From: Nostocoides sp.
Lineage (GTDB): Bacteria > Actinomycetota > Actinomycetes > Actinomycetales > Dermatophilaceae
Direction: 5' to 3'
NCBI GenBank assembly: GCA_025929465.1
Contig: JAICMC010000005.1
Coordinates: forward strand, 1-37,857
Length of the DNA: 37,857 nt
The position numbers and the translations under genes are program-made. Each line of letters starts with the position of its first letter. Position 1 is the stretch's first letter. This document shows positions 4,955 through 31,574 of this stretch, piece by piece. The notes below the pieces were generated by a model that saw only the letters and a list, made by a program, of their open reading frames with translations, was not told the DNA's origin and made no database searches.

Positions 4955-5908
4955 TCAGGCCTCGTTGTTGCGACGCTCGGCCCGGCGACCCAGAGTGGTC
5001 AACCGGTCCAGCAGCCCGGAGGACAGCTTCGAGCGCGCAGCTCGCCCTTCCACCGGGCCGGCCCCGCCCCGCTCGGGAGCGTCTGGAAGCAGCCGGTTCA
5101 CCCGGCCCATCAGCCGGATCGTCGTCGCCGGCGCCAACCCGCGGAAGCGGATCCCCAGCCAGGTCATCGGAGTCAGGACGACCATCGGGCGACCGGCGAG
5201 CACCCCCGCGACGATGCGACGGGCAGCTCTGTCGGCATCCATGGACAGCAGCGGCAGCGATGCGGCCGTCGCGAACCACCGGTACTCCTCCTGCCGGTCC
5301 CCGGTGAACCGGGCCCGGCCGTGCGACCCGGTCCGCATCAGCCCCGGCACGACCGTGGTCGCCGTGATACCGGTGCCGCTCAACGCCGCTGCCAGGCCGT
5401 CGGAGAACCCCACCGCGCCGAACTTCGCCGTGGCATACGGCAGCAGGTGTGGCGGGGAGACCATGCCGCCGATCGAGGTGACCGTACCGATCCGGCCGTG
5501 ACCGCGCCTGCGCAGGTGCGGCAGGACGGTGAGGGCGGCGTTGATCGGCCCCCACGTCATCGTGCGGACGGCGTCGTCGAAGTCGCTCACCCGCATCGAC
5601 TCCAGCGGGCCGGCCTGGATGACCCCGGCCACGGTGAGCAGGACCTCGATCGGACCGACGCCGGCCTCGACGTCGCCCACGACCGCACCCACCTCGTTGA
5701 TGTCTCCGACGTCGCAGACCCGAGCCTCCACCGGGCCGAACGGGTCGAGCATCGTCGTGGCCCGAGCCAGCTCGTCCCGGTCCCGGGCGGTGATGACCAC
5801 CGTGAACCCGCGCTTCAGCAGCTCGCGCGCAGTGAGGAGTCCCAGGCCCCGCGAGCCGCCCATGACCAGTGCGACGGACGCCTGTGGCGGCTGCGTTGGC
5901 GGTGCCAT
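4955..5908 (-). CDS. SDR family NAD(P)-dependent oxidoreductase
   Basis: VALVMGGSRGLGLLTAREL Rossmann start; YATAKFGAVGFSDGLA catalytic YxxxK. Confidence 0.9.
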   Translation of the reverse strand: MAPPTQPPQASVALVMGGSRGLGLLTARELLKRGFTVVITARDRDELARATTMLDPFGPVEARVCDVGDINEVGAVVGDVEAGVGPIEVLLTVAGVIQAGPLESMRVSDFDDAVRTMTWGPINAALTVLPHLRRRGHGRIGTVTSIGGMVSPPHLLPYATAKFGAVGFSDGLAAALSGTGITATTVVPGLMRTGSHGRARFTGDRQEEYRWFATAASLPLLSMDADRAARRIVAGVLAGRPMVVLTPMTWLGIRFRGLAPATTIRLMGRVNRLLPDAPERGGAGPVEGRAARSKLSSGLLDRLTTLGRRAERRNNEA

Positions 5909-6795
5909 CAGACGACCGGGTTCAGGCGCAGGGTGCGGGTCTCGTCGCTACGGACCTGGACGCGTCCGTCGACCACGCGAGTCTGGAAGATGGCCGCCGG
6001 TCGCGTCGCCGGTCCACGGGCCACCGAGCCGTCGGTCACCTCGAAGCGCGAGCCGTGCCACGGGCACTCGACGCAGCCATCGCGGACCGGGCTCTCGTGC
6101 AACGGCCCCCCGCGGTGCGTGCACCTGTCCCCCAGGGCCAGGACGCGCCCACGGTCGCGCACGACGAGGACCGGAGTCTGGTCGACCGTGACCGAGACCG
6201 GCACCCCGTCGACCAGGTCGGTCTCGGCAACGACATCGGTCCACTCCATCGGCGGCCGGAGGAAGGCGGTCGTGTCCACGCCGACACCGAGCGCGTATGC
6301 CAGGTGCCCACCGAGCCAGCCGCCGACACCCATCAGCGCCAGGCCGGCCACCGAGCTCGTGACCGCCCGCTTGGGCCGTGCGCCGTTCGCGCGAGCCACC
6401 CAGGACGCCGCCACGAGCGCCAGTCCGGCCGAGTTCGCCACCAGGTGCGCCAGTCCGACGCGCCGCTCCGGCCCGTCGGTGTCGCTCCAGTCGACCAGTC
6501 CCGAAGCGATGGCGACGGGGCTGGCGAGCAGGCCGAGCCCGAGCAGTCGCCGGGCCGTTCCGGGGTCGCCACCGGTGGCGTCCAGGTAGGCCAGACCGAC
6601 CAGCGCTCCCACGGGGACGGTGACGAGGACGGGGTGCAGTGGGTGCGCGGCGGCCACACCGGACAGTGCGTCCTTGAGCCGTCCGGGGCCGAGCCTGGAC
6701 ACGATGCCGTGCAGCGCCTCGGCCGGGGCGTCCAGGACGGTGGCGCCCTCGATGGCGAGGGCGGCGCGGTTGGCACGTCGAGCGATGACAGACAT
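5908..6795 (-). CDS. Rieske (2Fe-2S) protein with DUF2231-like N-terminal membrane domain
   Basis: C-terminal CTHRGGPLHESPVRDGCVECPWHGSRF Rieske motif; N-terminal LHPVLVTVPVGALVGLAYLD. Overlaps the SDR start (ATGA). Confidence 0.88.
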   Translation of the reverse strand: MSVIARRANRAALAIEGATVLDAPAEALHGIVSRLGPGRLKDALSGVAAAHPLHPVLVTVPVGALVGLAYLDATGGDPGTARRLLGLGLLASPVAIASGLVDWSDTDGPERRVGLAHLVANSAGLALVAASWVARANGARPKRAVTSSVAGLALMGVGGWLGGHLAYALGVGVDTTAFLRPPMEWTDVVAETDLVDGVPVSVTVDQTPVLVVRDRGRVLALGDRCTHRGGPLHESPVRDGCVECPWHGSRFEVTDGSVARGPATRPAAIFQTRVVDGRVQVRSDETRTLRLNPVV

Positions 6796-28420: not shown

Positions 28421-28487
28421 GTCAACGAACCTACCCAAAGTCGAGTGCTGCAGGCCGTAGTACTCGACTTCGGGTAGGTTCGTGGAC
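28421..28487. terminator. Long hairpin downstream of guaB1
   Basis: Arms 28421-28446 (GTCAACGAACCTACCCAAAGTCGAGT) and 28462-28487 (ACTCGACTTCGGGTAGGTTCGTGGAC): 24/26 complementary, 15-nt loop; starts 11 nt after the stop. No U-tract. Confidence 0.6.
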
Positions 28488-28489
28488 CA

Positions 28490-28830
28490 CCCTGGTCGTG
28501 TGGTCTGAAGCCACGATGAGCAGTTGCCGGCTGTCCGGCGACCAGGCGAGCGCGCCTCGCCGAACGACGACGTCAGGGATGCTGGCACCTGACGGCGCGT
28601 CCCGCTCGTGGGGTCGATGACGAGAAGGCACCAGCCGTCGGCCAGGGCGACCGCAACGGCAGCGAACCGCCCGTCGGGGAGATCCGGCCCGCGGCGTTCG
28701 GCGCCAGACCGGGGCCGAGGGCGGCGTGCCGGGCACCATCGTGATGGAAGGCCCGGCCGTCCCGGTGGCCACCGAGACGGTCGGCGCGCGCGAGAACGCC
28801 GATCAGTGGCGCCCGCCACGTCGTGGCCGG
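28490..28830 (-). pseudogene. Degraded beta-propeller (TolB/WD40-like) gene remnant
   Basis: Protein-like pieces split across minus-strand frames: ATGTAGPSITMVPGTPPSA, LPDGRFAAVAVALADGWCLLVIDPTSGTRRQVPA, SIPDVVVRRGALAWSPDSRQLLIVASDHTTRVV. Confidence 0.5.
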
Positions 28831-28869: not shown

Positions 28870-28934
28870 TACGGAGGGTGGGGAGCGGATCCTGAGGGTC
28901 CCCACCCCGGCAACCCGCTCCCTACGGTGGCGTA
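28870..28934 (+). repeat. Left copy (L) of ~65-bp hairpin repeat
   Basis: TACGGAGGGTGGGGAGCGGATCCTGAGGGTCCCCACCCCGGCAACCCGCTCCCTACGGTGGCGTA; aligns with the reverse complement of 29999-30064, with 20 identical bp at the inner end. Confidence 0.85.
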
Positions 28935-29917
28935 GCCCGGGGAACCACGCAGTCCCTGCGCCGACACGGCGTCGCCCGACCGGTCCAGCCGCGTGACCGG
29001 AAGAGGGCATCGCACTCCATCGCGGTGCGACACGGGGTGATCGCACAGTCCGGCCAGAACACCCGCACCGTGAACCAGCCGTCGCCACCCACCTCCCGGT
29101 CGCGCTGCCCATCCCGGGTCCGGTTCCGCCAGCCCTCGTGGCCCACCCGGCCGTCGACCTCGACGATCACCTTCGCCTCCGCGTAGCCGTTGTCGTGGTA
29201 GCGGCGCCGCCCGGAGTCGGTAGCCAGCTGCCTGGTCCCGACGGGCAGACCGTGCGCCCGCTCGACGTCTCGAATGAAGCGCACCTCGGCGGCGCTCTGC
29301 GCTCCGTCTGCCACGTCGGCGAGCGCCTCGGTGAGGAGCACGAGGTGCCGGTGCCGGGGCCGGCGACGCAGCTCGGCGAGCAGCTCACCCGCCGACACGC
29401 GTTCGGTCCTCACCGCTTCGGCCAGCAGACCGACCGCCCCGTCGATCCCAGTCCCGTGGGCCAGATCGAGCAGGGTGACGGGCACCGTGGTGCGCCAGGG
29501 ATATTCGGTGTCGTGCACGAATGCGTCCCATCGCCGCACCTGCCTGACCTCCACCCCCGTCGGGGCATCGACCCGTCGTCCGTGTGGGACGGCCAGACTC
29601 ACGACGGTCGGGTCGTGGTCGGTGAGGCCCCACAGCCGCGCGGCCGACCCGCCGCGGAATGCCACGGTGGCCCTCGGCACGGCCGACTCGAGCTGAAGGA
29701 ACGCCGTCATCGCGGTGACCGCCCAGCCGCCGCGACCCGGCGTGGTCAGGTAGACGCCGCGTCCCTGCGCGGTCCATCGACCCGTCGCCAACCGCCACTG
29801 GACAAGGGCATCGGTGAGCCCGGCGGTCCGGCACTGCGTCCGGGTGACGAGCGCGTGCTGCTGGTCGGCGTTGCGTCGCAGGGCACCCCAGTCCGGACTG
29901 CGGGTCGTGGCTGCCAT
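28922..29917 (-). CDS. AbiEi-antitoxin-like N-terminal domain + DUF559 (endonuclease-fold) protein
   Basis: LVTRTQCRTAGLTDALVQWRLATGRWTAQGRGVYLTTPG; RGGSAARLWGL; C-terminal EAKVIVEVDGRVGHEGWRNRTRDGQRDREVGGDGWFTVRVFWPD. TAG stop lies within repeat L. Confidence 0.82.
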   Translation of the reverse strand: MAATTRSPDWGALRRNADQQHALVTRTQCRTAGLTDALVQWRLATGRWTAQGRGVYLTTPGRGGWAVTAMTAFLQLESAVPRATVAFRGGSAARLWGLTDHDPTVVSLAVPHGRRVDAPTGVEVRQVRRWDAFVHDTEYPWRTTVPVTLLDLAHGTGIDGAVGLLAEAVRTERVSAGELLAELRRRPRHRHLVLLTEALADVADGAQSAAEVRFIRDVERAHGLPVGTRQLATDSGRRRYHDNGYAEAKVIVEVDGRVGHEGWRNRTRDGQRDREVGGDGWFTVRVFWPDCAITPCRTAMECDALFRSRGWTGRATPCRRRDCVVPRATPP

Positions 29918-29998
29918 CGGCACACCGTGCCCGATCCGCGCGGCACGGGTCGCCGCCTGTCCACAGGCACCCGGCATACGAGCTCCGAGCAGACCACT

Positions 29999-30064
29999 TA
30001 CGCCACCGTAGGGAGCGGATCGTCCGCGTCCCCACCCCCAGGATCCGCTCCCTACGGTCCCGTA
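29999..30064 (-). repeat. Right copy (R) of ~65-bp hairpin repeat, inverted relative to L
   Basis: Perfect 17-bp stem ACCGTAGGGAGCGGATC (30005-30021) / GATCCGCTCCCTACGGT (30042-30058), 20-nt loop; shares TACGCCACCGTAGGGAGCGG with L in inverted orientation. Confidence 0.9.
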
Positions 30065-30229
30065 TGCCGGGCCGCGCGGTCAGTCCGTAGCGGCCCGAAC
30101 GCTCGTGCCGATCGGAACCGCTCCATGACCGCCGCTGTCCCCACGAGACATCGCCGCAGCGGGTGACAGGATGAGTCGCATGGTTTTCGGCACTGCGGCA
30201 CGAGGCACCTCCGGCGAGCGGACCCGCTG

Positions 30230-31398: not shown

Positions 31399-31471
31399 GT
31401 CCCCATCGTCTAGCGGCCCAGGACCCCGCCCTTTCACGGCGGTAGCACGGGTTCGAATCCCGTTGGGGATA
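31399..31471 (+). tRNA. tRNA-Glu (anticodon TTC)
   Basis: GTCCCCATCGTCTAGCGGCCCAGGACCCCGCCCTTTCACGGCGGTAGCACGGGTTCGAATCCCGTTGGGGATA folds as a cloverleaf; loop CTTTCAC. Confidence 0.95.
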
Positions 31472-31497
31472 CGCAAGTCAGGCCTTGCACACCACGA

Positions 31498-31574
31498 GGC
31501 CCCGTAGCGCAGTTGGTTAGCGCGCCGCCCTGTCACGGCGGAGGTCGCCGGTTCGAGCCCGGTCGGGGTCGCCA
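31498..31574 (+). tRNA. tRNA-Asp (anticodon GTC), CCA encoded
   Basis: GGCCCCGTAGCGCAGTTGGTTAGCGCGCCGCCCTGTCACGGCGGAGGTCGCCGGTTCGAGCCCGGTCGGGGTCGCCA. Confidence 0.95.

Follow-up and report, generated by a model that had tools for sequence, protein, structure and literature searches.

The window, a 37,857-nt stretch of contig JAICMC010000005.1 from Nostocoides sp., contains an intact nuclease-like gene bracketed by two copies of one palindrome of approximately 68 nt. Bracketing of this kind is general in the Intrasporangiaceae/Dermatophilaceae. The hairpin–nuclease gene–hairpin unit (~1.1–1.2 kb) is probably a mobile palindrome system that resembles REP/RAYT and uses a non-HUH nuclease. An earlier note on this DNA had proposed a unit that moves or persists via its repeats, and recurring hairpin pairs, empty sites and solo hairpins support that proposal.

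The window locus and its closest relatives

The features of the locus are given in Table 1. The left (L) and right (R) hairpins align as inverted copies, as the earlier note had described. Their 62-nt arms (28873–28934 and 29999–30060) are 79% complementary over 1064 nt, and the inner 20-nt ends (28915–28934 and 29999–30018), when read from the sequence, are the exact inverted copies that were claimed. Each hairpin being a palindrome in its own right, L and R can equally be aligned as direct repeats (78%). R is the perfect 17-bp hairpin reported previously, with pairs at 30005–30021/30042–30058 and 23-nt arms (91%). Its DNA fold has a z-score of −5.7, and none of 200 shuffles is equally stable. 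L overlaps the last codons and the stop of the nuclease gene. It is degenerate by itself (z = −1.1), as had been noted, yet it is a clear member of the hairpin family with a covariance model (CM) score of 72 bits. With a flank-matching score of 29.5, this locus lies well beyond the cross-locus 99th percentile (19.7), and the bracketing greatly exceeds chance expectation. L and R are the only copies of the hairpin in the window's own genome, which is incomplete (2.5 Mb, 73% complete).

Table 1. Positions of the hairpins, the nuclease-like gene and the adjoining features in the window.
Feature	Position	Strand	Description and basis
Left hairpin copy L	28870–28936		Degenerate palindrome of the GTAGGGAGCGGATC family; self-alignment, CM
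Right hairpin copy R	29997–30066		17 perfect pairs plus outer TACG/CGTA pairs
AbiEi-wHTH + Vsr/EDxHD-like (DUF559) gene	28922–29917	−	331 aa, intact; Pfam, structure, alignment, dN/dS
5′ leader of the nuclease gene	29918–29998	−	Carries GGCATACGAG...
Remnant of propeller/lipoprotein-like gene	28482–28788	−	Matches L059:5313–5567 and 6156–6201
Site of the G002 MFS gene, missing from the window	30101–30157		G002 comparison

A separate inverted repeat with 29-nt arms (90% complementary) and a 9-nt loop is located directly after the IMPDH gene (28421–28487) and is probably an ordinary terminator. Two tandem tRNA genes (31399–31571) are located downstream of PHP. The Rfam search returned only tRNAs, and a known structured RNA was rejected on that basis.

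In the sister genome G002 (Intrasporangiaceae bacterium Centralia_MAG_384), the orthologous gene is likewise bracketed by both hairpins, and three solos occur elsewhere. G002 also contains a minus-strand MFS gene between R and PHP. The placement of R between divergent genes is therefore correct for the window but is probably secondary, and its use as evidence against a terminator was dropped, as R in G002 lies beside the 3′ end of the MFS gene. The G002 MFS gene lies at about 7750–9000 of L059, and its reading frame (L059 7608–8984) continues through R, which gives the protein a hairpin-encoded C-terminal tail. The propeller/lipoprotein-like gene, a remnant in the window, is intact in G002 (L059, about 5241–6512), where it adjoins the left hairpin. 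Part of the leader of the nuclease gene is repeated beside the same hairpin (L059:6458–6519). Approximately 45–60 nt adjoining the hairpin (GGCATACGAGACNCCCCANGNGGACC; window 29937–29998, L059:6458–6519) is present at both G002 hairpins, so the repeated element may extend past the hairpin.

In G001, the third genome of the genus, the window site is empty and the IMPDH–PHP gap is 64 bp. This genome carries its own unit, with its own matched hairpins, at another site. The IMPDH–PHP interval across L168–L177 is 15–64 bp in some relatives and 1.3–3.9 kb in others, which marks it as a variable insertion site. A strict search for the window hairpin pattern in 84,980 species returned no genome beyond the window's own and G002. 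The Y1 transposase (PF01797) is absent from all three genomes of the genus (G000, G001 and G002) and was detected in the positive-control genomes; RAYT/IS200 membership was rejected on the basis of this absence.

Matched hairpins flank homologs across the family

The homologous gene was found in 25 of the 53 genera of Intrasporangiaceae/Dermatophilaceae. In other genera, the CM of the window hairpin matches both immediate flanks of homologs. The first impression from BLASTN alone, a small dispersed repeat restricted to one genus and independent of the gene, was rejected for this reason. A hairpin finder that ignores sequence also places matched hairpins around many homologs, and the hairpin sequence varies from locus to locus.

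Upstream and downstream flanks were aligned with one another at 69 loci from 65 genomes, with the cross-locus 99th percentile (19.7) as the cut-off; the genomes are mostly one per species. The median score is 28.5 for a locus's own pair of flanks versus 11 for mismatched pairs. The flanks match above the cut-off at 48 of the 69 loci and fail at the remaining 21. Pairs therefore recur around DUF559 genes, as the earlier note had anticipated. The contrary patterns that it named, an arrangement limited to a single locus and hairpins widespread without DUF559 genes, do not hold; the arrangement recurs family-wide. The control genes show no such matching. For PHP in relatives, own and cross scores are both 10 and none of 30 exceeds 20. 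For cysG (n = 13), the maximum is 15.5.

Seven genomes (G178, G023, G139, G182, G151, G201 and G031) contain two or three well-matched units each. The hairpins differ between paralogous units, and each matches its own partner and not that of the paralog. The exception is G137, where one flank of the second unit resembles the first unit (27.0).

No plasmid was found to carry the unit, and none was found in viral genomes of IMG/VR. A homolog with 49% identity, flanked by matched hairpins, is present in a 14-kb "phage" record (MT835975.1; L261) from human faeces. This record is unverified and may be a bacterial contig.

Stem turnover and apex

Ten homologs (nine from genus g32 and one from g30) occupy one syntenic site, yet their hairpins have different stems, for example GACTCTGAAGGATC, GTCTTTGAGCGGTT, GAGTTTGAAGCG, GAGTCTTCGGAA and GTCTTTGAGGGATC. 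Within each unit at this site, the two hairpin copies agree with one another, as do their four arms. Among 14 hairpins from the site, 90.3% of stem cells are paired, and in 19 of 22 stem pairs both partners have changed. Covariation scores 0.60, compared with 0.22 for shuffled and at most 0.154 for slid alignments. Covariation within a hairpin can stem from quasi-palindrome correction without selection. For the left and right hairpins to agree, the two copies must exchange sequence.

For units at different sites, hairpin similarity and protein similarity are uncorrelated (Spearman 0.02; 177 of 500 permutations as high). Long-range co-evolution of hairpin and protein across sites is thus not demonstrated by the correlation test, and the result indicates that stems turn over fast. 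The apex is more constant than the stem. Of 80 strong hairpins, 41 have a core of the CCTGG/CCAGG/CCTGA/TCAGG/CATG type where 6.7 would be expected, an excess that is descriptive, as the list of cores was made after the loops were viewed.

Inversions and empty sites

The unit is flipped relative to its flanks (76–89% identity), with breakpoints at the hairpins, in five comparisons: L082 with L077 and L080, L090 with L129, L089 with L092, L094 with L095, and L157 with L165. These represent four site groups because L089/L092 and L094/L095 are the same site. Some of the flipped units may instead be independent insertions in opposite orientation. The gene is 65–73% identical in the inverted pairs, lower than the flanks.

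In genus g74, where the flanks are 90–96% identical, some species have the unit and others (G197, G198 and G199) have neither unit nor hairpin scar. Together with the empty window site in G001, these are the empty sites that the earlier note had proposed to look for.

Solo hairpins

Solo hairpins, also raised in the earlier note, exist in G002, G177, G173 and G172. With one mismatch allowed, the stem GCGACTCTGAAGGAT occurs in the unit of G177, G173 and G172 and additionally in four, two and one solos of these genomes, respectively. Seven genomes of the same genus that have other stems or no unit lack it (G171, G176, G170, G174, G175, G179 and G033). G178 has a single partial match that does not form a hairpin, and reversed-pattern controls give 0–1 matches. 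At strict match, no solos were found in G086/G087. The counts of 0–4 solos per genome are lower bounds, as the strict pattern missed the cysG copies in G173 and G172. Solos occurred only in genomes whose unit bears the same stem, except for one decayed inherited copy in the cysG of G171, whose resident unit has a different stem.

Ten solos were classified (three from G002 and seven from g32) with gene calls that are our own estimates from codon usage: four lie between convergent genes, three are within reading frames, two adjoin a single gene 3′ end and the remaining one has divergent genes on either side. Two of the in-frame solos are in the same CoA-ligase/fdrA-like gene (G177 and G173) and the third is in cysG of G177. 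The fdrA-like gene has a hairpin-encoded linker in two species (L221 and L222). In an alignment of cysG from 13 genomes, a 57-nt in-frame hairpin insertion is present in G177, G173, G172 and G171, and the empty site is clean in the other nine.

The nuclease-like protein

The first-listed open reading frame starts at 29977. The likely start is the ATG at 29917, which gives the protein length in Table 1. AbiEi-like and DUF559 parts had been read from the gene between L and R, and Pfam agrees, with matches to AbiEi_4 and AbiEi_1 and a weak match to DUF559. AbiEi_4 matches 26 of 27 homologs, and PADLOC AbiEi models also match the protein. Nine residues are invariant in the 27-homolog alignment (E253, D255, H260, D269, R272, D273, C296, C318 and C323).

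The AlphaFold2 model (pLDDT 91) is similar in Foldseek searches to the AbiEi antitoxin 6y8q (E = 3.6e-8) and to the catalytic domain of I-Bth0305I, 3r3p (E = 0.02–0.03, probability 1.00, TM 0.75–0.77 to the target). Pfam positions are the basis for placing the AbiEi fold N-terminally and the nuclease fold C-terminally. The model, Foldseek and the alignment agree that an EDxHD/Vsr catalytic fold and a conserved acidic/His motif are present. A DUF559 protein of Caulobacter has been reported as a Vsr-like nuclease (PMC12907096). The dN/dS ratio is 0.23 between the window gene and its G002 ortholog and 0.12–0.52 across nine pairs. No AbiEii (DUF1814) toxin adjoins the gene in the window or in G002; the neighbours are IMPDH, PHP, MFS and lipoprotein-like genes. 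Palindrome reading has a precedent in AbiEi antitoxins, whose own promoters contain 23-bp inverted repeats to which they bind (PMC7319586).

Proposed mechanism and alternatives

In the mechanism that we propose, the AbiEi-type winged-helix domain would read the unit's own palindrome and the Vsr/I-Bth0305I-type (EDxHD, DUF559) nuclease domain would nick it. Through cutting followed by repair at the palindromes, the two bracketing copies would stay alike and the unit would occasionally flip in place. A lone palindrome would sometimes be deposited elsewhere, at gene 3′ ends or in frame within genes. Binding and cutting of the hairpins by this protein, and their dispersal by it rather than by another recombinase, are inferred. 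The full version of this mechanism, in which every protein is specific for the hairpin of its own unit, makes the bracketing pair uniform, flips it and inserts single hairpins at new sites, including in frame within genes, is tentative and falls slightly short of an even chance.

The evidence counted for the REP/RAYT-like reading comprises the matched hairpins, the unit-specific stems, the covariation, the inversions, the present and absent sites, the stem-specific solos and the one precise filled/empty site. It also includes the peptides encoded by hairpins within the fdrA-like gene, the conserved apex, the AbiEi and I-Bth0305I folds, the invariant nuclease-motif residues, the dN/dS values and the lower conservation of the gene relative to its flanks, a trait reported for rayt as well (PMC2817692). 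The evidence counted against it comprises the low number of solos (0–4, versus tens to hundreds for REPs), the 21 of 69 loci below the cut-off, the null correlation between hairpin and protein, covariation that can derive from correction, and the missing target-site duplication. In addition, terminator-like selection could also account for the four of ten solos that are located where gene 3′ ends converge.

Under one alternative, the gene product is an orphan AbiEi regulator whose winged-helix domain binds the palindromes as operators and so represses its own gene, the nuclease domain acts elsewhere (e.g., in defence or mismatch repair) and the copies spread passively. The promoter binding of AbiEi antitoxins, the hairpin just upstream of the gene and the PADLOC matches are congruent with this explanation. 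However, the second matched copy is 3′ of the gene, where an operator is unneeded, solos are found at convergent gene ends or within the cysG and fdrA-like reading frames, and full hairpins of ~50 nt with a conserved apex are retained. We consider this explanation unlikely.

Alternatively, the hairpins could be MITE-like elements moved by an unrelated transposase, with the nuclease gene a passenger between two copies. In favour are the few-copy dispersed palindromes inserted at scattered sites and the low copy number. However, the stem tracks the resident unit, stems differ between paralogous units of one genome, and solos are absent from congeners whose unit lacks that stem. The gene, found in 25 of 53 genera and bracketed at 48 of 69 loci, is bracketed too often for a passenger, and the three genomes of the window's genus contain no Y1 transposase. 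This explanation is improbable. Both the operator and the passenger explanations are disfavoured because of the 3′ copies, the in-frame insertions and the unit-specific stems.

Bidirectional terminators or insulators around a foreign gene, with inversion by passive recombination between hairpins, would account for the strong stems, the many copies 5–65 nt after stop codons and the several solos between convergent genes, but are highly improbable, as terminators need no sequence that matches the gene's other end and differs from that of the next unit, insertions in frame within genes are not terminators, and the PHP and cysG control genes show nothing similar.

If the palindrome-dispersal mechanism is correct, the question of what moves palindromes could be put to the test with a single purified protein and the hairpin that belongs to it. 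Proteins annotated merely as AbiEi-like or DUF559 would also gain a candidate role.

Comparison with known systems

REP-like palindromes are widespread, and to our knowledge the HUH-type RAYTs are the sole dedicated enzyme family tied to them. We know of no mobilising gene assigned to the Rickettsia palindromic elements (RPEs). No literature linking DUF559 or AbiEi to bracketing hairpins was found.

The nuclease-like protein shares its catalytic-domain fold and motif with I-Bth0305I, other EDxHD homing endonucleases and Vsr. EDxHD homing endonucleases are found in introns and inteins or are free-standing and lack bracketing hairpins. Vsr repairs T:G mismatches. The nuclease domain here is fused to an AbiEi domain. 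The N-terminal fold is shared with the AbiE type IV toxin-antitoxin system, from which the unit differs in the missing AbiEii toxin, the added nuclease domain and the hairpins on both sides. With respect to insertion sequences and MITEs, the cysG filled/empty alignment, which represents one site, has no obvious target-site duplication.

In the published description of RAYT genes, two inverted REPs always flank the gene and co-evolve with it, and the gene evolves faster than its neighbours (PMC2817692). The units described here are similar in that a nuclease gene lies between two matched, unit-specific palindromes (48 of 69 loci), cognate solo palindromes are present in gene-bearing genomes (G002, G177, G173 and G172), and the gene is kept under selection and, in the inverted pairs, shows lower conservation than the sequence around it. 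They differ in four respects. RAYT is a Y1 (HUH) tyrosine transposase, whereas the protein here combines AbiEi with an EDxHD/Vsr fold. REPs have a GTAG/GTGG head, whereas these are symmetric palindromes with a CCWGG-type apex. REPs are far more numerous than the solos. Finally, the units are inverted in place and solos also occur inside genes. The resemblance to REP/RAYT is one of kind and not of membership because there is no Y1 transposase and the copy number is low. A different nuclease family with RAYT architecture, whose palindromes change together at the two ends and leave clean filled and empty sites, would mean an independent origin of the arrangement.

RPEs also occur in frame within protein-coding genes (PMC10969869). 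They are approximately 150 bp long and are found in Rickettsia; the hairpins described here are linked to a candidate gene. If the proposed mechanism is correct, AbiEi–EDxHD/Vsr proteins would be the type of mobiliser to seek behind orphan palindromic elements such as RPEs.
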